45,695 nt of DNA from Acidimicrobiales bacterium. GTDB lineage: Bacteria; Actinomycetota; Acidimicrobiia; Acidimicrobiales; RAAP-2. Below the pieces are notes generated by a model, which saw only the letters and a list, made by a program, of their open reading frames with translations, had not been told where the DNA came from and made no database searches. Shown one piece after another: positions 1,998 through 28,253 of this stretch. The stretch's first letter is position 1, and the number at the start of each line of letters is the position of its first letter. The DNA lies in the NCBI GenBank assembly GCA_017883135.1, contig JADGOE010000016.1, forward strand, positions 1 through 45,695. Reading direction: 5' to 3'. Position numbers and translations under genes: made by a program.

Positions 1998-4900
1998 TCA
2001 GCCTTGGATTGCGTTCGGACCCAACAGCACCCGGAGCTCCCCGACCAGGCCCCGGCGGCTGTCCACGTTGAACTCCGGCGGGAGGCGCAGCACCTTGCCT
2101 CCCACGTGCAGGAAGACCGGGGAGTCACCGGGGTGCTCGGCCAGGAGGTGCTTCAGGCCTTCCACGGTGCGGTCGGTGAGTGTGTTCAGCGGGAGGGTGA
2201 TCCGCAGATCGGCCGTGCCGTCCACGGCCAGCTCGGGACGTCGGACCTCCATGCACACCAGCTTCAGCCGGTCGTCCCGTAGGTCCACTCGGGTCTTCAG
2301 GACGACGATTGCGTCGTCGTCGAGCAGGGCACCGTACTCGGTCATCGTCTTCGGGAAGACGAATGTCTCGATGGACGCATTGAGATCCTCGAGTACGAAG
2401 GTGGCCATCAGATCGCCCTTCTTCGTGTACCGGCGGGTCAATTCGGTGACCACCCCTCCCACCAGGCGCATCTGGCCCTCGGTGGCAAAGCCCCCTGCCG
2501 ATCCGCCGATGGCCTCGGGGTCGACGTCGCGCAGTTCGGCCAAGGTGCAGTCGGTGAGCCGGCTCAAGGAGCCTTCGAGCCCCATCAGGGGGTGGTCGCT
2601 GATGTAGAGGCCGAGCATCTCCTTCTCGAAGGCAAGGCGTTGCGATTTGCCGAACTCGGTGTCGGGGATCGGCACCCGGGTGTCGGCAAACCCGGTGGCC
2701 TGCCCGTCCGTTTCGGGTTCGAGGGTGGCAAAGAGCGACACGACGCCGGCATCGTGCTCGCGGCGGCGCTCCAGAGTCCGGTCGACGATGTCCTCGAAGA
2801 CGAGGCACAGCCCCTGCCGGGGGTGGCCGAGGGAGTCGAACCCGCCGGCCTTGACCAGCGACTCGATGGTGCGCTTGTTGAGGACCTGCGGATCCACCCG
2901 TTGACAGAAGTCGTAGAAGTCGGCGTAGGGGCCGTTGCGTTCCCGTTCGGCCACGATGTGGGAGACGAGTCCTTCGCCGACGTTGCGCACCGCGGCAAGA
3001 CCGAAGGTGATGGCCCCGGGGCTGTCACCCTGTTCTCCGAGCGTCCCCAGTCCCCCGGAGAAGTCCGCTGCGAACTCCGACAGTGACCGGTTGACATCGG
3101 GCACCAGCACCTCGATGCCGAGGGAGCGGCACTCGCCGAGGTAGACCGCAGTCTTGTCCTTGTTGTCCTTGACCGAGGTGAGCAGGCTGGCCAGGTACTC
3201 GACCGGGTAGTGGGCCTTGAGCCAGGCGGTCTGGTAGGCGATGAACCCGTAGCCATAGGAGTGCGACTTGTTGAACGCGTAGTCGGCGAACGGTTCGATG
3301 ATGTCGAACAAGGAGGTGCCGAGCGGCTCGCCGTATCCCTGGGCGACGCAACCGGCCACGAACTTCTCCCGTTCGGCCTGGATCAGCGCGCGAATCTTCT
3401 TGCCGCACGCCTTTCGCAGGTTGTCGGCCTCGGCGAGGCTGTAGCCGGCGAACTTCTGTGCCACCCGCATGACCGACTCCTGATAGATCATGAGGCCGTA
3501 GGTACCGCTCAGGATCTCAGCGAGGTCAGGATGCAGGTAGGTGACCGCTTGCCGGCCGTTCTTGCGGTCTGCGTAGTCGCGATGCATGTTGTTGGCCATC
3601 GGGCCCGGTCGATAGAGAGCGACGAGAGCGGCTACGTCGTCGAAGGTGGTGGGGGCGAGCGAGCGCATCAGCGAGCGCATCGGCCCACCCTCGAGTTGGA
3701 ACACGCCCATCGAGTCGCCCTTGCGCAGCATGTCGAAGGTGGACGGATCGTCGAGCGGGATGCCGTCGATGTCCGGTCGGACACCTGTCGAGATCTCGAT
3801 CAGGTCGAGGGAGCGCTCGATGACCGACAGGTTCCGCAGCCCGAGGAAGTCCATCTTCAACAGTCCGAGATTCTCGACCCCGTGCATCTCGTACTGGGTC
3901 ACGATCGGGGCGTTGTCGGGATCGTTGCCGTCCGGCTTGCGCTGCACCGGGACGTACTCGGTCACGGGCTCGTCGGTGATCACGACCGCCGCGGCATGGA
4001 TGCCGTCCTGACGGCGCAGGCCCTCGAGGCCCTTGGCCACGTCGATGACCCGCTTGGCCTCGGGATCGGAGTCGTACATGGTGCGCAGCTCGCCGGCTGC
4101 GGCGAAGCCGTCCTCGAATCCCTCGGTGCGGGCCAGGCAGGCGGTCAACGGAGTGTCGCGGCCCATCAGGAGAGGAGGCATTGCCTTGGCGATCTTGTCA
4201 CCCACGATGTAGGGGTAGCCGAGCACACGGGCAGCGTCCCGCACCGCGGCGCGTGCCTTGATGGTGGAGAACGTGACGATCTGGGCGACGTGGTCCGATC
4301 CGTACCGCTCGGCGGCGTACTTGATCATGTCGCCCCGGTAGCGCTCGTCGAAATCCATGTCGATGTCGGGCATCTGGACGCGTCCCGGATTGAGGAACCG
4401 CTCGAAGAGCAGGTCGTACCGGATCGGATCGAGATCGACGATCTGGAGGCAGTAGGCCACGCAGCACCCGGCGGCCGAGCCCCGGCCCGGCCCCACCCTG
4501 ATCCGTTGGGAGCGGGCGAACCGGATGAGGTCCCAGACCACCAGGAAGTATGCGGAGAAGCCCATGTCGGCGATGACCCGGAGCTCATAGTCGAGACGGG
4601 TCAACACCTCGGGGGGGATGGGAAGGCCGTAGCGCTCCTTCGCCCCCTCGATGCTCAGGTGGCGGAGGTAGCCGGCCGCCCGCTCCTCGTAGGTCTCCCC
4701 GGTGAACTCCTCGGGTACGGGAAAGCGCGGCAGGCTCGGCCTGGCGAAGTCGATCTCCACCGAGGCCCGCTCGGCGATGAGCAACGTGTTGTCACAGGCC
4801 TCGGGAAGCTCGGCGAAGAGGTGGCGCATCTCCGCTGCCGACTTCAGGTAGTGCTCCTCTCCTTGGAACTTGAACCGTTTCGGGTCGTCGATGAGGGCAC

Positions 4901-5624
4901 CGGTCTGCACGCACAACAAGGCGTCATGGGCGACATGGTCCTCGCGGTGGGTGTAGTGGCTGTCGTTGGTGGCGAGCAGGGGAGCCCCGATTCGTCGGGC
5001 GATCTCGACCAGTGCCGGGTTGGTCTTGTGCTGCTCGGGCAGACCGTGGTCCTGCAATTCGACGAACAGGCTGTCCTTGCCGAAGATGTCCTGCAGCCGC
5101 GCGGCCAGCGCCTCTGCCTTGATCCGGTCGTCGGCCAGCAGGGCCTGGAGCACCACGCCGCCGAGGCAGCCGGTGGTGGCGATTAGCCCGGTGCTGTGCC
5201 GGGCCAGCAACTCCCAGTCGAGTCGAGGTTTGTAGTAGTAGCCCTCGAGGTAGGCGGCCGACGACAGCTTGAGAAGATTCCGGTACCCCTGATCGGACTC
5301 GGCCAGGAGCGTCAGGTGGTAGTAGAGCTTCTCGCCGCCGGCCACGTCGCCGCCGGTGTCGTCGACCTTCCCCCGGCGGACCGGTCGCTCGTGCCGCGAC
5401 TCGGCGGCCATGTAGGCCTCGGTGCCGATGATCGGGTTGATGCCCGCCTTCCGACAGGCGGCATAGAAGTCGAGGACGCCGTACATGTTCCCGTGGTCGG
5501 TGATCCCGAGGGCGGTCTGACCATCGGCCACGGCTGCGTCCACCAGGTCGTCCACCCGGGCAGCCCCGTCGAGCATGGAGAACTCGGTGTGAGTGTGTAG
5601 ATGTGTGAACGACCGTGTTGCCAC
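1998..5624 (-). CDS. dnaE: DNA polymerase III subunit alpha (DnaE1 type)
   Basis: The replicative polymerase catalytic subunit, 1208 residues, full length for the family. The N-terminal PHP domain opens with HLHTHTEFSMLDG (residues 8-20) and keeps further metal-binding motifs (GITDHGNMYG, TNDSHY), so it may be an active proofreading exonuclease as shown for mycobacterial DnaE1. The polymerase catalytic motif PDIDMDF lies at residues 419-425. A helix-hairpin-helix region and a C-terminal OB-fold (near MRLVGGVVTELTRRYTKKG) follow. The start is GTG at 5624, with GAGGAAGG about 10 nt upstream. It is preceded by bpa on the same strand, 148 bp away. That gap contains paired DnaA-box-like sites and a TATCGT -10 candidate, so dnaE probably has its own promoter. 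Confidence 0.98.
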   Translation of the reverse strand: MATRSFTHLHTHTEFSMLDGAARVDDLVDAAVADGQTALGITDHGNMYGVLDFYAACRKAGINPIIGTEAYMAAESRHERPVRRGKVDDTGGDVAGGEKLYYHLTLLAESDQGYRNLLKLSSAAYLEGYYYKPRLDWELLARHSTGLIATTGCLGGVVLQALLADDRIKAEALAARLQDIFGKDSLFVELQDHGLPEQHKTNPALVEIARRIGAPLLATNDSHYTHREDHVAHDALLCVQTGALIDDPKRFKFQGEEHYLKSAAEMRHLFAELPEACDNTLLIAERASVEIDFARPSLPRFPVPEEFTGETYEERAAGYLRHLSIEGAKERYGLPIPPEVLTRLDYELRVIADMGFSAYFLVVWDLIRFARSQRIRVGPGRGSAAGCCVAYCLQIVDLDPIRYDLLFERFLNPGRVQMPDIDMDFDERYRGDMIKYAAERYGSDHVAQIVTFSTIKARAAVRDAARVLGYPYIVGDKIAKAMPPLLMGRDTPLTACLARTEGFEDGFAAAGELRTMYDSDPEAKRVIDVAKGLEGLRRQDGIHAAAVVITDEPVTEYVPVQRKPDGNDPDNAPIVTQYEMHGVENLGLLKMDFLGLRNLSVIERSLDLIEISTGVRPDIDGIPLDDPSTFDMLRKGDSMGVFQLEGGPMRSLMRSLAPTTFDDVAALVALYRPGPMANNMHRDYADRKNGRQAVTYLHPDLAEILSGTYGLMIYQESVMRVAQKFAGYSLAEADNLRKACGKKIRALIQAEREKFVAGCVAQGYGEPLGTSLFDIIEPFADYAFNKSHSYGYGFIAYQTAWLKAHYPVEYLASLLTSVKDNKDKTAVYLGECRSLGIEVLVPDVNRSLSEFAADFSGGLGTLGEQGDSPGAITFGLAAVRNVGEGLVSHIVAERERNGPYADFYDFCQRVDPQVLNKRTIESLVKAGGFDSLGHPRQGLCLVFEDIVDRTLERRREHDAGVVSLFATLEPETDGQATGFADTRVPIPDTEFGKSQRLAFEKEMLGLYISDHPLMGLEGSLSRLTDCTLAELRDVDPEAIGGSAGGFATEGQMRLVGGVVTELTRRYTKKGDLMATFVLEDLNASIETFVFPKTMTEYGALLDDDAIVVLKTRVDLRDDRLKLVCMEVRRPELAVDGTADLRITLPLNTLTDRTVEGLKHLLAEHPGDSPVFLHVGGKVLRLPPEFNVDSRRGLVGELRVLLGPNAIQG

Positions 5625-5668
5625 CTGGTCGGCGCCTTCCTCGATGGTCTCGCCCCCACCGTGGCGGG

Positions 5669-5689
5669 TTTTCCACAGGGTGTGGACGA
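5669..5689. promoter_or_regulatory. Paired DnaA-box-like sites upstream of dnaE
   Basis: TTTTCCACA on the plus strand (5669-5677) and TCGTCCACA on the minus strand (5681-5689) face each other across 3 bp. Each is one mismatch from TTGTCCACA, the DnaA box of high-GC actinobacteria. They lie 45-65 bp before the dnaE start. A regulatory role is an inference. Confidence 0.4.
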
Positions 5690-5709
5690 GTTACAGCATT
5701 GTCATTCCG

Positions 5710-12601: not shown

Positions 12602-12641
12602 GGCGACCGTACGAGCGGCGACTCTAGGAGTGAATGGTCGA

Positions 12642-13583
12642 ATGGTTGCACCGGAACAGGTCGGTGGGGGTGCGACCGTGGGGAGCGCCCAGGTGGAGAC
12701 GGTGATCACCGGGCAGCCGGTCGATCCGGTCGAGCGGTTCCGTGAGCAGCCTCTGCCGCGATGGGAGCGTCGTGGCGAGTACAAGGACATCCACTTCGAC
12801 GTGGCCGAAGGTGTCGCCAAGCTGACCATCGCCCGTCCCGAGGTGCGCAACGCCTTCCGGCCGCAGACACTCTTCGAACTGGCAGACGCCTTTTCGGTCG
12901 CGCGCGACGATCCGTCGGTGGGCGCCATCATCCTGACCGGCCAGGGGCCCGATGCCTTCTGCTCCGGTGGTGACCAGATGATCAGAGGCGACGACGGCTA
13001 CCTCGGGGACGACGCCGTGGCCCACCAGGGAATCGGCCGGCTCAACGTGCTCGACCTCCAGATCCAGATCCGGCGCCTTCCCAAGCCGGTGGTGGCGATG
13101 GTGGCGGGCTATGCCATCGGTGGGGGTCACATCCTCCACCTGGTGTGCGACCTGACCATCGCAGCGGACAACGCACGCTTCGGACAGACCGGTCCAAAGG
13201 TCGGCAGCTTCGACGGTGGCTACGGAGCCAGCCTGCTGGCCCGGTCCATCGGGCTGAAGCGGGCCAAGGAGGTGTGGTTCCTCTGCCGCCAGTACGACGC
13301 GGAGACCGCCCTCGACTGGGGACTGGTCAACACCGTGGTGCCGCTGGCCGACCTCGAGCGGGAGACGGTCGCCTGGTGTCGACAGATGTTGTCACTCTCG
13401 CCCCTGGCTCTGCGCATGCTGAAGGGTGGTCTCCATGCGGCCGACGACGGTCTGGCCGGTCTCCAACAGTTCGCCGGTGATGCCACCATGCTCTTCTACA
13501 TGAGCGAGGAGGGCCAAGAGGGGCGCAACGCCTTCCAAGAGCACCGGCCACCGGACTTCGGTCGCTTCCCCCGGCGCCCGTGA
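12642..13583 (+). CDS. menB: 1,4-Dihydroxy-2-naphthoyl-CoA synthase
   Basis: A 313-residue crotonase-fold enzyme that closes the naphthoquinone ring from o-succinylbenzoyl-CoA. The oxyanion-hole segments CSGGDQ (107-112) and GYAIGGGH (156-163) are present, and [14 protein letters not shown] contains the catalytic aspartate (Asp191). The C-terminal [13 protein letters not shown] and the tail ending DFGRFPRRP are diagnostic of MenB. I chose ATG at 12642, with AGGAG 11 nt upstream; an in-frame GTG at 12630 would add four residues. The stop overlaps the menA start in GTGA, so the two genes are translationally coupled. Confidence 0.95.
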
Positions 13584-14533
13584 CCGGCGGCGACACCACT
13601 CGCGTACCTGCCCTTCCCGGTCCAGTGAAGCGCTGGGTCCTCGGTGCCCGGCCCCGCACCTTGGCTGCCGCCATCGTCCCGGTGGTGGTGGGCACGGCGG
13701 CAGCGCACCCGCGCACCGTAGTCGTCGACTATTTCTGGTGGCGCGCGCTGGGCGCCCTGGTGGTGGCCCTGGCCATCCAGGTGGGCACCAACTATGCCAA
13801 TGACTACTCCGACGGGATCCGTGGCACCGACGATGCCCGGGTCGGGCCGGTCCGCCTGGTCGGTTCGGGACTGGCGGCACCGTCGGCGGTCAAGCGCGCC
13901 GCCTTGTCCGCCTTCGGGCTGGCCGCGGTGGTCGGCCTGGTACTGGCATGGGCCACGTCGTGGTGGGTCCTCCTCGTTGGTGGCGCATGTCTGGCCGCCG
14001 GCTGGCTCTATACGGGTGGCCCGCGTCCCTACGGCTACGCCGGCATGGGCGAGGCGTTCGTGTTCGTCTTCTTCGGGCTGGTGGCCACGGTGGGCACCTT
14101 CTATGTGGAGACGCTGCGCATCGACCGACCGGTGGTGTGGTTCGCCGCGGTGATGGTCGGGCTGCTGGCCACCGCCTTGCTGCTGGCCAACAATCTCCGC
14201 GACATCGAGACGGATCGGGCCACCGGAAAGCGCACCCTTGCCGTTCGGGTGGGCCGCCACACCGCGGGGTGGTGCTATGTGGGCTGTGTCGTCCTGCCGT
14301 TCCTCGGGGTGCTGATCTGGGCGCTGCTGTCGGTGACCGGTGCCATCCACGCCTTCCGCCCTGCCGTGGCCTTCCTTCCCCTCGTGGTCCTTCCTCTGAT
14401 CGTTCCACCGGTGCGGCTGGTCACCGGTGAGGCGGTCGGGTCTGCCCTGCTGCCGGTGTTGGCGGCCACCGGCCGCCTGCAGCTTGCCTTCGGTGCGGTG
14501 CTCTCCTGCTCGCTGTGGATGTGGCTGCCGTGA
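13580..14533 (+). CDS. menA: 1,4-Dihydroxy-2-naphthoate polyprenyltransferase
   Basis: A 317-residue integral membrane UbiA-family prenyltransferase that attaches the isoprenoid tail to 1,4-dihydroxy-2-naphthoate. The first Asp-rich motif is [15 protein letters not shown] (71-85) and the second is [20 protein letters not shown] (near 205-224). Several hydrophobic helices are evident, for example around residues 58-70, 105-125 and 150-175. The GTG start at 13580 overlaps the menB stop by 4 bp. The gene is convergent with menH, with only 14 bp between stops. Confidence 0.96.
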
Positions 14534-14547
14534 CCGGCCGCGATCGT

Positions 14548-15390
14548 TCAGCGCCTGGCGGAGTGGGAGACGAAGCCCCGAACCAACTCGGCAACCTCGC
14601 CGGGACGTTGCAGATGGGGTGCGTGGCCGGCTCCGGCCACGACCACCCCGGTGGCGTTGGCACCGATCGCCTCCACCATCCGGATCCCCAGGGCAGCGAA
14701 CTTCTCGTCGAGTTGGCCGGTGATGACGAGCACCGGCATGGTCAACTGGCCGAGGGCTCCCCACATCGGCACCTGCGTGCCGGTGCCGGCCAGACGGAGG
14801 CTCGTTGCAAGCCCCGGCCCACTGTTGGCCAACCGCTCCTCGAACCCGCCGGCCTCGACGGAGATGCCGGAAAACATCGGGCTGTCCATCCAGCGGCGGA
14901 GGAACGTCTCGACCGGCAGGGGTGCCGCCGAGCCTCCGGCCGGGTCGAGCTGGTCGGCCAGCGCCCGGTCCGAACGCCGTCGCTCCTGGCGCTCGAGGAG
15001 GCTGTCGATGCCGGCCGTGCCCGACACCAGGACCAGCCGCTCCACCAGTTCGGGATGGGCCAAGGCGGCATGCAGGCAGAACCGCGCTCCCATCGAGTAG
15101 CCGACGTAGGTCGCTTTGCCTCCGGCTTCGACCAGCAGCCGAGCCCCGTCGACCAGCCCGACCGCCACCTCGGTCGACCGGCCGTGGCCGGGCATGTCGA
15201 CCTGTACGACGTGGTGGTCGGTGGCAAGGTCGTCGTTCATCCCGGCCCAGACCCGACCGGTCTGGGTGAAGCCGTGGGCCAACACCAGCCGTGGGCCACT
15301 TCCCGATCCCTCGAACTTCAGGGAGGCAGCGGAGCGGAGCGGGGGGTGGCCCTGGGTGTCAGGGCTCGAGGGTGGTTTGGCCGACGACAT
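14548..15390 (-). CDS. menH: Alpha/beta hydrolase, probable SHCHC synthase
   Basis: A 280-residue alpha/beta hydrolase. The nucleophile elbow GYSMG places Ser at 99, the oxyanion region is LAHGFTQTGRVW (37-48), and the late histidine is His256 in GAGHAPHLQRP. The segment LVLVSGTAGIDSLLERQERR is typical of MenH, which eliminates pyruvate from SEPHCHC. The position next to menD supports this. The ATG at 15390 is the only likely start, since no GTG or TTG occurs in frame before the conserved core. It lies 11 bp from the oppositely oriented menD start, so its promoter must fall inside menD. Confidence 0.85.
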   Translation of the reverse strand: MSSAKPPSSPDTQGHPPLRSAASLKFEGSGSGPRLVLAHGFTQTGRVWAGMNDDLATDHHVVQVDMPGHGRSTEVAVGLVDGARLLVEAGGKATYVGYSMGARFCLHAALAHPELVERLVLVSGTAGIDSLLERQERRRSDRALADQLDPAGGSAAPLPVETFLRRWMDSPMFSGISVEAGGFEERLANSGPGLATSLRLAGTGTQVPMWGALGQLTMPVLVITGQLDEKFAALGIRMVEAIGANATGVVVAGAGHAPHLQRPGEVAELVRGFVSHSARR

Positions 15391-15401
15391 GGGGAACGAC
15401 G

Positions 15402-17306
15402 ATGAGCGTACCGACGGCTGGGCGGCATTCCGGGGATGCAGATCTGCAGGCTGCGTGTGCCGCCACGCTGGTCGACGAGTGGGTGCGCGGCGGAGTCGAA
15501 CACGCAGTGGTCTGCCCGGGGTCGCGTTCGACCCCGCTGGCGGTGGCGCTGGCCACGCACCCGGGGATCGAGGTCCACGTCCGCCTCGACGAGCGCTCGG
15601 CCGGGTTCATGGCTCTGGGGATCGGACTGACCACCGGGCATCCCGCCATGGTGGTGACCACCAGCGGCACCGCCGCCGCCGAGCTCCATGCTGCGGTGGT
15701 CGAGGCGGATCTTTCGAGAGTGCCCCTTCTGGCCTGCACCGCCGACCGTCCCCCGGAACTGCGCGACGTGGGTGCCCCCCAGACCATCGACCAAGCCCGT
15801 CTCTTCGGACGGTCGGTGCGATGGTTTGCAGACCCGGGGGTTCCAGACGCCGCTGCGCGCCCGTCGTGGCGCTCCTTCGCCGCCCGTGCGCTGGCCGAGG
15901 CGACGTCGAGCCCGGTCGGCCCGGGTCCGGTCCACCTCAACATGCCCTTCCGCGAGCCACTGCTCGGGGACCCCGAGCGCGGCGGGGGAGTATCCGAAGG
16001 GCGCCCAGGCGGCATGCCGTGGCACGCGGTGGTCTCGGGGAGCCTTCGACCGACCGATGCGTCGGTGTCCTCGCTGGTGGGTTCGGCCGGTTTCACACCG
16101 GGTCGGAGGGGGTTGATCGTCGCCGGTGCCGGGTGCGGTGACCCCACCGCGGTGCTGGCCCTGGCGCGGGCACTCCGGTGGCCGGTTCTGGCCGAGCCCC
16201 GTTCGGGCGTGCGCCTCGACGAGCCCGGTGTCATCGGGGCCGCCGACGCCATCCTGCGCTCCGAGCGGTTCGCCGCCGCCCACGCTCCCGAGCTCATCCT
16301 CCGCCTCGGCGGGCGCTGGGCGTCCAAGGTGGTCAACGGCTTCCTGTCCTCGGCGGTCGGGGAGGGCGCCCGGCTCGTCGTCGTCGATCCGTTCGGTCGA
16401 TGGACCGATCCCGAACGGGATGCGACGGCGTTCGTCCGCGCCGACCCCACCGCTCTGTGCGCGGAGGTCGTCGAGCGGGTGGTCCTCCCGGAGCCGTCCG
16501 GCTCCGGCTCCGGCCCCGAAAGCGGCAATCGTTGGTGGGACGCGTGGTGGGACGCGTGGTGCGAGGCCGAGTCGACGGCGTGGTCGGTCATCGGCGCGGC
16601 CTTGGGCGGGGGGGACGGACAGGTGGAGGCCACTGCCTCGTTGACCGAGCCCGCCCTGGCCCACCGACTGTTCGCCCGGCTACCGGCCGAGGCCACATTG
16701 GTGGTGGCGTCGTCCATGCCCATCCGGGACGTGGAGGCGTTCGCACGCCCCCGTCGCCAGCCGCCCCGGGTGCTGTGCAACCGGGGGGCCAACGGCATCG
16801 ATGGGGTGGTGTCCACCGCCCTGGGCGTGGCGCTCGGCGGCCGTGGTCCCGTGGTGGCCCTGGTGGGGGATCTGGCCTTCCTCCACGACGTGTCCGCGCT
16901 CGTGGGAGCCGAAGGATCCGGCATCCCCCTGACCGTCGTGGTGGCCGACAACGGGGGCGGGGGGATCTTCTCGTTCCTCGAGCCGGCGTCGGTCCTCGAT
17001 CCGGCCACCTTCGACCAGCTCTTCGGGACCCCCCAGGGGCCAGACGTCGCTGCCGTCGCCGCCGGCTTCGGTTGGTCGGTGGACGACGTGGCCGGCGGGA
17101 GCGACCCGGGCGGGTTCGAAGAGGTGCTCGACCGGCGGGTCGGCAGCGGTTCTCCCTCGGTGATCAGGGTGCGGCTACCGGATCGAACCGAGAACGTGGC
17201 CGTCCACGGTCGACTGCACGCTGCCGTTGTCGCAGCCGTCGACGCCGGCAGGGACGCCGGCAGGGACGCCGGCAGGGACGCCGTTCAGCAGGGTCGGGGA
17301 TCGTAG
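15402..17306 (+). CDS. menD: SEPHCHC synthase (thiamine diphosphate enzyme)
   Basis: A 634-residue ThDP-dependent enzyme that joins isochorismate and 2-oxoglutarate in the first committed step of menaquinone synthesis. The N-terminal domain shows CPGSRSTPLAVALA and DERSAGFMALGIG, and TSGTAAAELHAAVVEA follows. The C-terminal ThDP/Mg domain shows GDLAFLHDVSAL and DNGGGGIFSFLE. The ATG at 15402 has GGGGAA 5 nt upstream; the open frame extends further upstream, but conservation starts here. The tail carries three DAGR units from a 12-bp tandem repeat and is longer than usual. The stop overlaps the 3' end of the convergent LCP gene by 22 bp. Confidence 0.95.
   Translation: MSVPTAGRHSGDADLQAACAATLVDEWVRGGVEHAVVCPGSRSTPLAVALATHPGIEVHVRLDERSAGFMALGIGLTTGHPAMVVTTSGTAAAELHAAVVEADLSRVPLLACTADRPPELRDVGAPQTIDQARLFGRSVRWFADPGVPDAAARPSWRSFAARALAEATSSPVGPGPVHLNMPFREPLLGDPERGGGVSEGRPGGMPWHAVVSGSLRPTDASVSSLVGSAGFTPGRRGLIVAGAGCGDPTAVLALARALRWPVLAEPRSGVRLDEPGVIGAADAILRSERFAAAHAPELILRLGGRWASKVVNGFLSSAVGEGARLVVVDPFGRWTDPERDATAFVRADPTALCAEVVERVVLPEPSGSGSGPESGNRWWDAWWDAWCEAESTAWSVIGAALGGGDGQVEATASLTEPALAHRLFARLPAEATLVVASSMPIRDVEAFARPRRQPPRVLCNRGANGIDGVVSTALGVALGGRGPVVALVGDLAFLHDVSALVGAEGSGIPLTVVVADNGGGGIFSFLEPASVLDPATFDQLFGTPQGPDVAAVAAGFGWSVDDVAGGSDPGGFEEVLDRRVGSGSPSVIRVRLPDRTENVAVHGRLHAAVVAAVDAGRDAGRDAGRDAVQQGRGS
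17241..17283. repeat. 12-bp tandem repeat at the menD 3' end
   Basis: GACGCCGGCAGG occurs 3.6 times head to tail with no mismatch, encoding DAGRDAGRDAGRDA near the MenD C-terminus. Repeat number could vary between strains without breaking the frame. Confidence 0.85.
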
Positions 17307-18667
17307 GAGGGGATCGACGACGCCGGGGCGGTGGCGGTTCCCGTGCCCTTGGATGGCGTCGCCGCGACGTTGGTCGTCGGCGGGGCCGTGGTGGTGGTCA
17401 TCGGAAGCGTGAGCGGTGAGCCGTAGGCATCGAGTGGCGGCGTGCCGACAGCGCCGGGGGCCCCACCGAGGAACTGGGTGAGTGTCTGTGCGGCAGCGTC
17501 GGGTTGGACCACCTCGACCGACCCGGCCACCGACGAGGAGGCTCCCACGGTAGGCAGGGTGTAGGCATGCAGGTCGGAGCCGGAAAAGGCGTGGTACCGC
17601 TCGCCCAGTGACACCAGGTCGGTGAGCGACAGGGCGTCGTCCTTGCTGAAGTCGTGGACCACCGAGTTGAGGAGCGTGTTCAGCCGCAGGGGATTGTAGG
17701 TGGACTTGGCCTTGTCCAGTGCGGCCGAGATGATCAGGTTCTGACGCTGGATCCGGCCCAGGTCCGACGTGGGGTCGGAGTGCCATTGGCCGCCCGCGAA
17801 GTACTGGAAGTATCGGGAGCGGGACAGCGCGAGGGCCTGCTGGCCACTGAGCACCTGGCAGCCCGCGGTCGGGACGTCGAGGCCCGAGTTGTTGTAGCAG
17901 GTACCGGTGGCGCAGTCCCGGTCGCGGACCGGATACGGGAAGTCCATCGAGATCCCGCCCAGGGCGTTCACAGCGTCTTGGAGACCGAAGAAATTGACCA
18001 CGATGTAGTGGCTGATCGGGATCCCGAACGTGTTCTCCACGGTCTTGATCAACGCATCAGGGCCGTTACTGAAGGCGGCATTGATCTTGTTGTTGCTCGA
18101 GAGCTGACTGTTTGCCGGCAGTCCGGACAGCGTCACATAGGTGTCCCGGGGGATGGAGAGGGTCGAGGCGGTTCCCGTGGACGGGTCGACGTGGACGATC
18201 TTGATGGTGTCGCTGCGTTGGCCACCGGCGTTGGAGGAGTTCCCGAACTGCTGGGCCTGGGCCGCCGTCTCTCCGACCCGGGTGTCGGAGCCGATCAACA
18301 GCACGTTGTAGGGCTGGCCGTTGGCTGCCGCCACGCAGGTGGAGCAAGGGCTCGAGAACACCTTGCTCCACTGGTAGCGGAGGTATCCGTAACCGAGGCC
18401 GGCCACCACCAGCACCACTGCGACCAGCACGATCAACCCGCGCAGGATGCGTTCGGCCGGCCGTCGGCGGTGCCTCTTGGCCTTGCGCAACTCCCGCTTG
18501 GTGGGGATGGCCACCTGTCCACCCAGTATGGGCCCGGAGAACCGGGGGGAACCCCCGGACCGTCGGGCCGAACCGGGGGTCGAGCCGCGGGGCAGGCCGG
18601 TGGGTCGGCCCGGGGATCGTCCGGACGGACGGGAGCCGGGTGGCAGCGAGGAGTCGGTGGGTGGCAT
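17285..18667 (-). CDS. LytR-CpsA-Psr (LCP) family glycopolymer ligase
   Basis: A 460-residue membrane-anchored LCP protein, a family that transfers polyprenyl-linked glycopolymers to peptidoglycan or other cell-wall acceptors. A long cytoplasmic Pro/Arg/Gly-rich segment is followed by one transmembrane helix (LRGLIVLVAVVLVVAGLGYG) and the LCP domain: NVLLIGSDTR, GGQRSDTIKIVHVD, LSIPRDTYV, then LSGQQALALSRSRYF with catalytic arginines. The tail is Thr/Pro-rich and ends in a cysteine. I placed the start at ATG 18667; an ATG 17 codons upstream is also open. No clear Shine-Dalgarno sequence precedes it. Two cysteine pairs (SPCSTC and DCATGTC) lie on the outer side and may form disulfides. Confidence 0.92.
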   Translation of the reverse strand: MPPTDSSLPPGSRPSGRSPGRPTGLPRGSTPGSARRSGGSPRFSGPILGGQVAIPTKRELRKAKRHRRRPAERILRGLIVLVAVVLVVAGLGYGYLRYQWSKVFSSPCSTCVAAANGQPYNVLLIGSDTRVGETAAQAQQFGNSSNAGGQRSDTIKIVHVDPSTGTASTLSIPRDTYVTLSGLPANSQLSSNNKINAAFSNGPDALIKTVENTFGIPISHYIVVNFFGLQDAVNALGGISMDFPYPVRDRDCATGTCYNNSGLDVPTAGCQVLSGQQALALSRSRYFQYFAGGQWHSDPTSDLGRIQRQNLIISAALDKAKSTYNPLRLNTLLNSVVHDFSKDDALSLTDLVSLGERYHAFSGSDLHAYTLPTVGASSSVAGSVEVVQPDAAAQTLTQFLGGAPGAVGTPPLDAYGSPLTLPMTTTTAPPTTNVAATPSKGTGTATAPASSIPSYDPRPC

Positions 18668-18793
18668 GGTGGATTGGGTCCCGTTGGATCGGCGTTCCGA
18701 CCTGCCGGCACGTGGCACCGGGACGTCCGGTACAGGGTGGGCAGTCTCCCATGACCTGCGGAGGCAGTGGTGTCATCCCGGGTCTGCGCCTCC

Positions 18794-20140
18794 TCACGAG
18801 TCCGTGGGCACCCACGATCCATGGAAGCCGAACGGCACGCGGGCCGGGAGGTGCACCGTGGCGACCGCAGGGCCGCCGAATGAGGTGGCATCGAGGATGA
18901 CCAGGTCGCTTGCGTCCCGAGTGGCGTCGTAGACGAGGCTGAGCACCCACCCTTCGTCCTCTGCCCGGCCGTCGCCGGCTCGCACGAAGACAGGCTCACC
19001 GGGGGAGCGGTGCTCTCCGGGCTCGAACCGGGTCGACTCGTCGCGTTGAAGGTCGTACTTGACCAGGCCCAGAAAGGTCGGATCGTGGGCGATGTCGCCG
19101 AGGCGGGCGCAGTAGCCGTACCGGTGGGGCTGCCCGGCCACCGCATCGTCGATGCGCGGGAATTCGACCGGCGTGTCGTCGAGCCGCTGCTCGCTGACCC
19201 GATTGGCGACCAGGTCGACCGTCCACCGGGCGAGCACCGGATTGCTGGAGGTGATGGCCTCACCGGGCCCGGTGTCGAAGGCCTTGTCGTACCGGACGAC
19301 GTCCATGATCACCGATCCGCCGTCGTCGTAGGCGTTGAGGACATGGAAGACGTAGCTCGGGTCCATGCTGATCCACCGGATGTCGGAGTTTCCTCCCGTC
19401 CGGGGCATCACACCCACCCGGGCGCCTGCTTCGGGCATCCACCGGAAGGGAATGGAGTGCCCGGCTGCCGCGAGATCGAGGTCGAAGACGATGGGGAGAT
19501 CGAGGAAGACGGCTCGGGTGGAGGTCACCCCGAAGTCGTGGATCATGGTGGCCCTCGGGATGTCGATGTCCTCGGTGCGCACCAGGTGGCCCGCGGCATC
19601 GACGACGTGGAATCGGAGGAAGGGCGGCCCGAAGACGTCGTAACCGAAGAAGACCAGATCGCCGGTTTCCGGGTCCACTTTGGGGTGGGCGGTCATCGAT
19701 GAGGAGAGCCCGCCGTCGAAGTCGTGGACACGGGCCCGGTCCAGAGTTGGGGACAAGGCGTGGGGGAATCCCGACTCCACCAGCGCGAGGGTGGTGCCGG
19801 CATGGCGGATGACGTGGGTGTTGGCCGGCCCGTCGACCGGCTCGCTCGGGCCTCTGGGCGGGGTGGTGTCGACCTTGGCGGCCAATGCCCTGGTTCGGAC
19901 CCAGCGGTTCCGGTAGCCGGTGGCCTTCCCGCCTGCGAGGGAGATGGCGTGGATCATGCCGTCACCGCCGAACCAGTGGTAGTCGGCCTGGTCCGAGGGG
20001 ACGATCGCCGGGTTCGGTCCGTTCCGCAGGAACCGTCCCTCGAGGTCGGGTGGGATGACACCGGTGACCGGCAGCTCGTGGTCGTCACTCCGCTCGGCGA
20101 CGACCGGCGCGAAATTGCCCTGGAGATAGGGATTGAGAAT
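18794..20140 (-). CDS. Carotenoid cleavage oxygenase with an apparent ATT start
   Basis: A 448-residue RPE65/carotenoid-oxygenase family protein, a non-haem iron dioxygenase that splits carotenoids or related stilbenes. The family hallmarks NPYLQGNFAPV, RFLRNGPNP and HWFGGDGMIHAI are in frame, and four iron-binding histidines can be placed in AHPKVDP, MIHDFG, VFHVLNAYDDG and GFHGSW. From the in-frame TGA near 20280 to the core there is no ATG, GTG or TTG; the first ATG (19957) would delete about 60 conserved residues. ATT at 20140, two codons before NPYLQG, has a well placed AGGAG 6 nt upstream, so I take it as the start. The substrate is unknown. Confidence 0.88.
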   Translation of the reverse strand: MLNPYLQGNFAPVVAERSDDHELPVTGVIPPDLEGRFLRNGPNPAIVPSDQADYHWFGGDGMIHAISLAGGKATGYRNRWVRTRALAAKVDTTPPRGPSEPVDGPANTHVIRHAGTTLALVESGFPHALSPTLDRARVHDFDGGLSSSMTAHPKVDPETGDLVFFGYDVFGPPFLRFHVVDAAGHLVRTEDIDIPRATMIHDFGVTSTRAVFLDLPIVFDLDLAAAGHSIPFRWMPEAGARVGVMPRTGGNSDIRWISMDPSYVFHVLNAYDDGGSVIMDVVRYDKAFDTGPGEAITSSNPVLARWTVDLVANRVSEQRLDDTPVEFPRIDDAVAGQPHRYGYCARLGDIAHDPTFLGLVKYDLQRDESTRFEPGEHRSPGEPVFVRAGDGRAEDEGWVLSLVYDATRDASDLVILDATSFGGPAVATVHLPARVPFGFHGSWVPTDS

Positions 20141-20151
20141 GGGGCACTCCT
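20141..20151 (-). promoter_or_regulatory. Ribosome binding site that decides the ATT start
   Basis: On the minus strand AGGAG is followed by TGCCCC and then ATT at 20140. The spacing of 6 nt is near ideal and supports initiation there. Confidence 0.55.
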
Positions 20152-20192
20152 CGATGGTGCACTGCGGATCGGTCCGGGCGGACCGCGTGCCG

Positions 20193-20202
20193 ATCGTAGC
20201 GT
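20193..20202. promoter_or_regulatory. Overlapping divergent -10 boxes of tyrS and the carotenoid oxygenase gene
   Basis: ATCGTAGCGT holds TAGCGT on the plus strand (20197-20202) and TACGAT on the minus strand (20198-20193), sharing the TA. The plus promoter would give a tyrS leader of about 30 nt. The minus promoter gives a leader near 45 nt with a hairpin (CGGTCC/GGACCG, 20170-20185). Confidence 0.4.
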
Positions 20203-20237
20203 CCGTACTTCCGTCGATGACGTGGCAGGCTGGGAAG

Positions 20238-21524
20238 ATGGCCGAGCTTGTCGAGGACCTACGCTTCCGTGGGCTGATCCATCAGATGACCGATCCCGCC
20301 CTCGGTGACCGCCTGGACACTGACCGGATGACCGCCTACACCGGGTTCGACCCGACAGCGGACAGCCTCCACGTGGGCCACCTCCTGCAGGTCTGCAACC
20401 TCCGCCGCCTGCAGCGTGCCGGACACCGGCCCATCGCCGTCGCCGGGGGAGGCACCGGGTTCGTCGGCGACCCGGGGGGCAAGTCCGAGGAACGGTCCCT
20501 GCTGTCCGAAGAGGCACTGCGGGCGAACCTGGAGGGCATCCATGGCCAGCTGAAGCGCTTCATCGAGTTCGGAGCCGACGCCGAGGGCCCGGGGGCACTG
20601 TTGGTGAACAACGCCGACTGGCTCGAGGCGATGCCCCTGTTCGACTTCCTGCGCGACGTCGGCAAGCACTTCACGGTGAACCAGATGGTGGCCAAGGACT
20701 CGGTCAAGTCGCGGCTGTCACGCGCCGACCAGGGCATCTCCTACACCGAGTTCAGCTACATGCTCTTGCAGGCCTATGACTTCCTTCACCTGTTCGATGT
20801 GTTCGGATGCCGGCTCCAGCTCGGAGGGAGCGACCAGTGGGGGAACATCACCATGGGGATCGAGCTGGTTCGCAAGGTTCGCCAGCAGGAAGTCTGGGGG
20901 GTGACCACACCGCTGGTCCTGAGGGCCGACGGCACCAAATTCGGAAAGACCGAAACCGGAACGGTCTGGCTCGATGCGGGTCGGACCAGCCCCTACCAGC
21001 TGTACCAATTCTTCTTTCGGAGCGAGGACGTGATGGTCGGGAAGTACCTCCGCTACTTCACCTTTCTCTCCCACGAAGCCATCCTCGAACTCGATGTGGC
21101 CACCGCCGAGCACCCCGAACACCGCCAGGCCCAACGGGAGCTGGCCCGAGAGGTGTGCACGCTGGTGCACGGCTCCAGCGAGACGGCACGTGCGGAGGAC
21201 GCCGCCGCCGCACTCTTCGGAGAGGAGGTAGCACAGTTGGACGAGCGGACCCTGCTCGACGTCTTCGCCGAGGCACCGTCGATCGAGGTCCCGCGGACCC
21301 GCTTGGACGGTCGAGGGGTGTCGCTGGTCGACCTTCTGGTCGAGACCGGTATCGCCCCCTCCAAGGGCCGGGCTCGGACGACCGTGGAGCAGGGCGGGGC
21401 CTACGTGAACAATCGACGCGAGGGAGATACAGGTCGGTTGATCGGCGCGGACGATCTGCTGGCAGGAAGGTACCTGGTGCTCCGCCGTGGGAAGAAGGAG
21501 TACCGGCTGGTGAGCTTCGGTTAG
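20238..21524 (+). CDS. tyrS: Tyrosyl-tRNA synthetase
   Basis: A 428-residue class I aminoacyl-tRNA synthetase. The tyrosine/ATP site shows YTGFDPTADSLHVGHL, where HVGH is the HIGH motif, followed by GGGTGFVGDP, the tyrosine-specific QAYDFLHLF and GGSDQWGN, and KFGKT as the KMSKS equivalent. The C-terminal 70 residues (SLVDLLVETGIAPSKGRART) form an S4 RNA-binding domain. The ATG at 20238 begins MAELVEDL, where conservation starts; a GGGAAG lies directly upstream. The open frame extends 35 codons further but is not family-like. No T-box leader is visible in the 97 bp upstream. Confidence 0.97.
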   Translation: MAELVEDLRFRGLIHQMTDPALGDRLDTDRMTAYTGFDPTADSLHVGHLLQVCNLRRLQRAGHRPIAVAGGGTGFVGDPGGKSEERSLLSEEALRANLEGIHGQLKRFIEFGADAEGPGALLVNNADWLEAMPLFDFLRDVGKHFTVNQMVAKDSVKSRLSRADQGISYTEFSYMLLQAYDFLHLFDVFGCRLQLGGSDQWGNITMGIELVRKVRQQEVWGVTTPLVLRADGTKFGKTETGTVWLDAGRTSPYQLYQFFFRSEDVMVGKYLRYFTFLSHEAILELDVATAEHPEHRQAQRELAREVCTLVHGSSETARAEDAAAALFGEEVAQLDERTLLDVFAEAPSIEVPRTRLDGRGVSLVDLLVETGIAPSKGRARTTVEQGGAYVNNRREGDTGRLIGADDLLAGRYLVLRRGKKEYRLVSFG

Positions 21525-26665: not shown

Positions 26666-27403
26666 TCACGACCTCCCGGGCGCCAGATGGCCGTCGAGCC
26701 AAACCAGGGTTCGCCTCCATCCGTCGGCGGCTGCCGCCGCCGAGTACGAGGGTCTGGCATCGCAGTGGAATCCGTGTTCGGCGTCCGGGTACCGGACGAT
26801 CTCGGTCTCGACCGGCGCGTGCACCGCCAGCTTCGCCGAGAGCCGCTCCACGTCCTCGGTGGGAATGCTCTGATCCGCGTCTCCGAACAGGCCCAACCAC
26901 GGAGTCGGCATGCCGGCGATGAGACCGAGCAGGGACGGCATCGACGTGCTCCGGCCGGTGACGATCCCCCCGCCGTAGAAGCCGACGGCTGCTCCCAAGG
27001 CCATGGTGCCGGCCACCAGGAACGCGACTCGGCCTCCCATGCAGAATCCGACGATGCCGATCTGATCGTCGACCCAGCCGGCGTCGCGGAGGTAAGCGAC
27101 CGCGGCGCCCACGTCGGCGAGGATCCCATCGTCACCGAGCGCCTGCATGTGGGAGACGACCAGGCTGAAGTCGTCGTAGCCGAAGGTCGGCGAACCGGTG
27201 CGGTGGAAGAGGTGGGGGGCCACTGCGTGGTACCCGGCGTCGGCGAACCGGCGGGTGACGTCCTCGATGTGGGCATTGACGCCGAAGGCCTCCTGGACGA
27301 CCACCACAGCGCCGCGAGCGGGTGCAGCGCCGGTATCCGGCCGCGCCTCGTAGCACGGCACGGGGCCATCGGGGCCGACGAGGTCGAAGGTGCGGGTCTC
27401 CAT
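26666..27403 (-). CDS. Dienelactone hydrolase family protein
   Basis: A 245-residue alpha/beta hydrolase of the dienelactone hydrolase family. The Cys-Asp-His triad is placed at Cys121 (GFCMGG), Asp175 or 177 (GDADQSIP) and His210 (AEHGFHCD), with the activating glutamate in QEAFGVN. Members cleave dienelactones or other small esters and lactones; the substrate here cannot be inferred. No aromatic degradation genes lie nearby. The ATG at 27403 is chosen for conservation; no clear Shine-Dalgarno motif precedes it. It is divergent from the prepilin peptidase gene. Confidence 0.9.
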   Translation of the reverse strand: METRTFDLVGPDGPVPCYEARPDTGAAPARGAVVVVQEAFGVNAHIEDVTRRFADAGYHAVAPHLFHRTGSPTFGYDDFSLVVSHMQALGDDGILADVGAAVAYLRDAGWVDDQIGIVGFCMGGRVAFLVAGTMALGAAVGFYGGGIVTGRSTSMPSLLGLIAGMPTPWLGLFGDADQSIPTEDVERLSAKLAVHAPVETEIVRYPDAEHGFHCDARPSYSAAAAADGWRRTLVWLDGHLAPGRS

Positions 27404-27442
27404 AGACGGACCACGATGCCCGATCCACCACTGAACGTCCAG

Positions 27443-27448
27443 TACGTT
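27443..27448 (+). promoter_or_regulatory. -10 box of the prepilin peptidase gene, leaderless type
   Basis: TACGTT ends 7 bp before the GTG at 27456 and supports that start over the upstream TTG at 27447. Confidence 0.45.
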
Positions 27449-27455
27449 GCCGGGG

Positions 27456-28253
27456 GTGGAGATCCTGCTCGTAGCCGGTGTGTCGGTAGCCGGCCTCGTC
27501 GTCGGGGGCGCCCTCGATCCGATCGGCCAGCGGCTGGCCGATCGCAGTCAGGCCGCTGCCGATGCTCGGCGTGCCCAACATGAGCGCCGGCGCGCGGAGG
27601 AGGGTTTCGACAGCGCACCGGACGGCGCCGCCGAGGATCGCCAGCTGGCGGAGAGCACGGTGGGGAATCTGCTGCCCGCCGGCCGTTCACCCTTCCGGAC
27701 GGTGGCGGCGGCGGTGGCCACCGGCGCGCTGTTCGGTGTGGCAGCCGGCCGGTTCGGCGCCCACCTGGTGCTGGCACCGTTCTGTGTCTTCTTCGCGATG
27801 TTGGTGGTCATCTCCGTCACCGACCTCTCCCACCGGCTGGTGCCCCGCAACGTGATCTACGCCGCCTTGGCCCTCATCGTCCCGCTGCTGGTGGCCACCT
27901 CGGCCGTCGACGACACCTGGCACAGCCTGGCCGGCTCCGCCATCGCCGGGGGGGTCGCCTTCGGGATCTTCTTCACGATCTGGTGGTTCATCCCGCGCGG
28001 CATGGGCTTCGGCGACGTACGCCTGGCCGGCGCCATCGGCCTGACGGTCGGCTACCTCAGCCTCTTGCACGCCTACGTGGCGTTTCTGGCCGGATTCGTG
28101 GTGGGAATGGTCTTCGGATTCGTGGTGATGGTGGTCTCGTCGTCGGGCCGCAAGACGCGGATCCCCTTCGCCCCGTCGCTTGCCGCCGGAGCGGTGATCG
28201 CTGTCTTCTGGGGCGGGCACCTGGCCCAGAGCCTGTTCCATGCCGGATCGTGA
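27456..28253 (+). CDS. Prepilin peptidase (A24 family)
   Basis: A 265-residue polytopic membrane protease that cleaves type IV prepilin or pseudopilin leaders. The two catalytic aspartates are Asp123 in SVTDLSHRLVPR and Asp187 in GMGFGDVRLAG, the GxGD motif of the family. Six or seven hydrophobic helices can be traced after residue 85. The N-terminal methyltransferase domain of classical PilD is not recognisable: residues 25-80 are instead a charged cytoplasmic segment without the CxxC motifs. No pilus genes occur in the window. The GTG start matches a leaderless promoter. Confidence 0.9.
   Translation: MEILLVAGVSVAGLVVGGALDPIGQRLADRSQAAADARRAQHERRRAEEGFDSAPDGAAEDRQLAESTVGNLLPAGRSPFRTVAAAVATGALFGVAAGRFGAHLVLAPFCVFFAMLVVISVTDLSHRLVPRNVIYAALALIVPLLVATSAVDDTWHSLAGSAIAGGVAFGIFFTIWWFIPRGMGFGDVRLAGAIGLTVGYLSLLHAYVAFLAGFVVGMVFGFVVMVVSSSGRKTRIPFAPSLAAGAVIAVFWGGHLAQSLFHAGS

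Follow-up and report, generated by a model that had tools for sequence, protein, structure and literature searches.

The window, by which we mean the whole stretch of 45,695 nucleotides analysed here, comes from an uncultured actinobacterium and carries on its minus strand a gene of the carotenoid cleavage oxygenase family (PF03055; 18794..20140), identified by a Pfam match of 3.6e-124 and by alignment to solved CCD structures. Its frame spans 495 codons, open from 20281 to the stop ending at 18794 and bounded upstream by TGA at 20284-20282. As the preliminary description had reported, there is no ATG, GTG or TTG between this upstream stop and the first in-frame ATG (19955..19957, minus strand), which encodes an internal Met62 if an ATT at 20138..20140 is counted as codon 1. 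Read from the ATT, the product comprises 448 codons plus stop and matches PF03055 over the full length of the profile (positions 1-469 of 469, 415.8 bits, with profile position 1 at residue 10), placing it in the RPE65 family; read from Met62 at 19957, it lacks profile positions 1-51 and matches 52-469 only (351.3 bits, about 64 bits fewer). Residues 1-61 include conserved family sequence, and the conserved in-frame N-terminus proposed earlier is covered by the profile from residue 10 on, its length being 61 rather than 60 residues. His 152, 201, 266 and 440 (ATT = 1) align with histidines of the solved structure 9luz_A, i.e. the four family histidines are kept, and we take these to be the iron ligands.

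The gene is present as a single copy in its own genome (no other match at E<=0.001), and its product may cleave a carotenoid or stilbene double bond. Phytoene synthase (PF00494) was matched in none of the 14 genomes of the genus, where a control profile matched seven, which suggests that the cell may not make a carotenoid substrate of its own; the substrate may be supplied from outside or may be something other than a carotenoid. The earlier name, carotenoid oxygenase, accordingly holds as that of a family rather than of a reaction on an endogenous carotenoid. The oxygenase-family gene is kept in 14/14 genus genomes, yet none of these matches phytoene synthase. A search for a rhodopsin link (PF01036) matched 0/14 genomes, but its control also matched none, so that this result says little, and a literature search pairing carotenoid cleavage dioxygenase with Acidimicrobi found no paper.

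Upstream, across a divergent intergenic region that forms the leader of the oxygenase gene (20141..20237, minus strand), lies the tyrosyl-tRNA synthetase gene tyrS (20238..21524, plus strand; PF00579). This divergent neighbour is found within 213 bases of the oxygenase in 26 of 29 loci, our own included, the remaining three being explained by contig ends (L008, L010) and a rearrangement (L025); relatives as distant as about 50% identity still have the pairing. Of the 29 loci, 14 have lytR next, and among 13 longer loci from named relatives 6 have tyrS, lytR and a menD-like gene all around the oxygenase, the others being without lytR or ending before menD. In the window itself, genes of the enoyl-CoA hydratase and UbiA families, the menD-like gene, lytR, the oxygenase and tyrS stand together at 12603-21524. 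Possibly the oxygenase stands next to a menaquinone-type cluster; parts of this gene order are seen again in relatives. A plasmid search gave no match.

Position of the start codon

On the minus strand a Shine-Dalgarno-like GAGGAG (20147..20152) precedes the ATT at a distance of six bases (TGCCCC), confirming the AGGAG at 6 nt noted previously. By itself this motif was rejected as evidence, because AGGAG-N5-8-ATT occurs twice on the two strands of the window and RGGAG-N5-8-AUH 13 times; what sets this occurrence above chance is that it falls in the column where the orthologues start, and that substitutions take on a coding pattern from there on.

Homologues were collected from the genus, where all 14 genomes have a match at E<=1e-60, and from the family (42 of 172 genomes). 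The start column could be read in 44 of the 49 other places listed, leaving out the genus orthologue L014, which is cut by a contig end, and the weak places G019:C17, G015:C14, G017:C134 and G055:C261. Of 16 loci from named relatives (Acidimicrobiaceae, Acidimicrobiales or Actinomycetes bacteria, from assembled metagenomes), 14 duplicated loci already counted and were counted once, and two (L049 and L051) were new, giving 46 loci besides our own. ATT occupies the aligned column in none of these 46, all from other species, and is private to the window genome among the relatives examined; no second strain of the window's species was found among the homologue loci listed, i.e. those of the family genomes and the named loci.

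At 58% identity or more there are 23 relatives, of which 20 have a normal start codon exactly in the ATT column: nine ATG, one TTG and one GTG within the genus, and two ATG and seven GTG outside it. The exceptions are L011, with GTG one codon upstream, and L026 and L027, with ATG 13 and 12 codons upstream, respectively. Twelve genus orthologues are readable, eleven with a normal start in the column and the twelfth with the GTG one codon upstream. For nine of the 20, including L003, no normal start lies further upstream in frame, so that the column is the first possible start; the other 11 have a further normal codon upstream in frame, and their starts are assigned by position only. More distant homologues, whose N-termini often differ or extend, were given no start assignment. 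The codon in close relatives, proposed earlier as a check, is thus ATG in the closest ones, with ATT in the window alone among the loci read. In the L027 orthologue the column holds GTC behind GAGGAG, with the nearest normal start (ATG) 12 codons upstream, a possible second instance of a start that has shifted or weakened.

The closest relative, L003 (83% identity), has ATG in the column and the same tyrS neighbour, and so offers an exact ATG counterpart with the same leader layout. Its alignment runs ungapped through the leader, and differences by codon position are 9/9/3 over the 32 triplets (96 bases) before the ATT, a non-coding pattern in the oxygenase frame, as against 8/6/29 over the 100 codons after it; in the 15 triplets further upstream, which are antisense to tyrS, they are 0/0/4. 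This third-position bias, found after the ATT and not before it, indicates that coding in the oxygenase frame begins at the ATT triplet. L003 shares the AGGAG and its 6-nt spacing, despite differences at 21 of the 96 leader bases. By this comparison the start position is secure, as the preliminary description had placed it, and sequence comparison alone finds coding that begins at an AUU with a Shine-Dalgarno element upstream. A frameshift that joined an upstream ATG, the circumstance in which that placement was to fail, is rejected, since the leader aligns without a gap and carries no coding pattern upstream of the ATT. Gene callers limited to ATG, GTG and TTG would start at 19957, at a cost of 61 residues of the oxygenase.

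Direction of change and constraint on the protein

In the tree the window copy (L001) pairs with L003 at 96% support. Since L003, L002 and L004 all have ATG in the start column, a single change from ATG to ATT on the branch of the window accounts for them most simply, and the ATT is best read, by parsimony, as derived through one base substitution. Purifying selection acts on the protein, with dN/dS (NG86) of 0.229 against L003 and 0.148 against L002, although such tests cannot date the start change itself. No acceleration is seen, L001 having 22 unique residues and L003 35 when both are set against L002, L004 and L005. A faint hint of relaxed constraint may lie in the departures of L001 from residues that the other 21 orthologues all share, four out of 124 (two of them prolines); the same count is 1/121, 2/122, 0/120 and 1/121 for L002 to L005. 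Over 18797-20140, third-base changes number 51 unique to the window copy and 28 unique to L003, opposite to the amino-acid changes (22 and 35).

Probable translation from AUU and competing explanations

The reading that we favour, and hold to be probable though well short of secure, is of an intact conserved oxygenase gene in which ATG changed to ATT on the window's branch and which is translated weakly from AUU. Initiation at this codon is likely, by analogy with other genes: the retained AGGAG would guide ribosomes to the old start position, initiation would take place with fMet-tRNA on the AUU, and discrimination by IF3 against AUU would result in a low yield of oxygenase, predicted to rise when IF3 is scarce. 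The calculated Shine-Dalgarno duplex of -8.4 kcal/mol with the anti-Shine-Dalgarno tail lies within the range of the 20 relatives (-4.4 to -12.3); pairing is therefore ordinary for the group and provides no clear compensation for the ATT. The strength of the AUU and its dependence on IF3 are likewise predicted from analogy, as is a production rate that would be low in the manner of staphylococcal cvfC1, whose AUU start is described as giving about 10% of the AUG yield in S. aureus (PMC13009471), and of Listeria rsbW with ATT, which is described as weakly translated (PMC13068326).

The lineage probably has AUH starts already, given that the start of infC is a conserved ATA after AGGGAG in 14/14 genus genomes, our own included (L055, G000:C78). 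The infC loci are L052-L064 and L066, genome G003 being read from the split piece L066 (the other piece, L065, gave no motif), and in two of them (L059, L063) the frame also contains normal start codons farther upstream. The infC ATA is likely an IF3-autoregulated start; for S. aureus infC with AUA, IF3 autoregulation has been proposed (PMC13009471). Like infC, the oxygenase gene presents an AUH codon after a Shine-Dalgarno element; unlike it, the oxygenase gene encodes an enzyme that is not known to be linked to IF3, and its ATT occurs in one genome only, whereas the weak infC start is conserved through the genus. As far as the published descriptions go, E. coli pcnB and S. aureus cvfC1 (both AUU) are similar in being chromosomal genes limited by an AUU start, but in cvfC1 the AUU and an extended Shine-Dalgarno sequence are conserved among staphylococci, whereas the oxygenase relatives have ATG, GTG or TTG and ordinary pairing. 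Closer in distribution, according to the same literature, are the Listeria rsbW isolates with ATG-to-ATT or ATG-to-ATA changes and S. aureus citZ (AUA), where the weak start is likewise found in one lineage; those, however, are cultured strains with reporter-tested starts, and the oxygenase ATT is known from one assembled genome alone. The gene would add a case to the known AUU-started genes and leaves knowledge of initiation unchanged. Changes of this kind from a normal start in conserved genes are rarely documented, the survey cited here giving one switch to AUU among 61,358 ancestral AUG starts (PMC5622118).

With so low a natural rate, even a low rate of consensus error becomes a serious competitor, and both error and a fresh loss of the start stay in contention. 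In the former case the assembly would carry a wrong base where the organism itself has ATG or a different normal start. This we judge unlikely, though it is the strongest of the alternatives: the ATT differs from the ATG of the closest relatives by a single third base, every readable genus orthologue has a normal start in the column or one codon away, and the assembly is broken into 126 contigs. Against it, large frames of the contig match G001 end to end, e.g. 2001-5690 (1230/1230 codons) and 20130-21521 (464/464), these being examples and not a systematic frameshift test, and blind to single-base substitutions.

A recent inactivation, in which loss of the start leaves the cell with hardly any or no functional enzyme while the frame has not yet had time to decay, or with only a truncated protein from Met62, appears less probable again. 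An ATT can indeed be nearly silent, the Listeria rsbW reporter being described as without detectable fluorescence (PMC13068326), and the four altered invariant positions in L001 would fit a gene released from constraint; in that same Listeria report, however, protein from the ATT construct was still seen by Western blot. Retention of the Shine-Dalgarno element, a frame free of stops, the lack of any excess of amino-acid change and the persistence of the gene with its tyrS neighbour in relatives down to about 50% identity all argue for continued use, and a product begun at Met62 would be missing the first 51 positions of the family profile.

That selection fixed the ATT as a form of tuning, lowering the oxygenase and placing it under an IF3 control shared with the AUA-started infC, is a doubtful extension of the weak-translation reading. 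Least probable, and rejected on the codon-position divergence from L003, is a start further upstream, either at an in-frame ATC (at -5, -18, -26, -33 and -46, of which L003 shares -18, -33 and -46) or at the GTG of 20147-20145 with a subsequent +1 shift on the CCCC just before the ATT: the 32 triplets before the ATT show the non-coding 9/9/3 pattern, the 15 earlier ones (0/0/4) are antisense to tyrS, L003 has GGC and not ATC at -5, and the GTG overlaps the Shine-Dalgarno element at a point where L003 aligns without a gap.

A second gene of the window that seemed to be without a start, at 26672-27547, was rejected as a further case; it encodes a dienelactone hydrolase and has its ATG at 27403.
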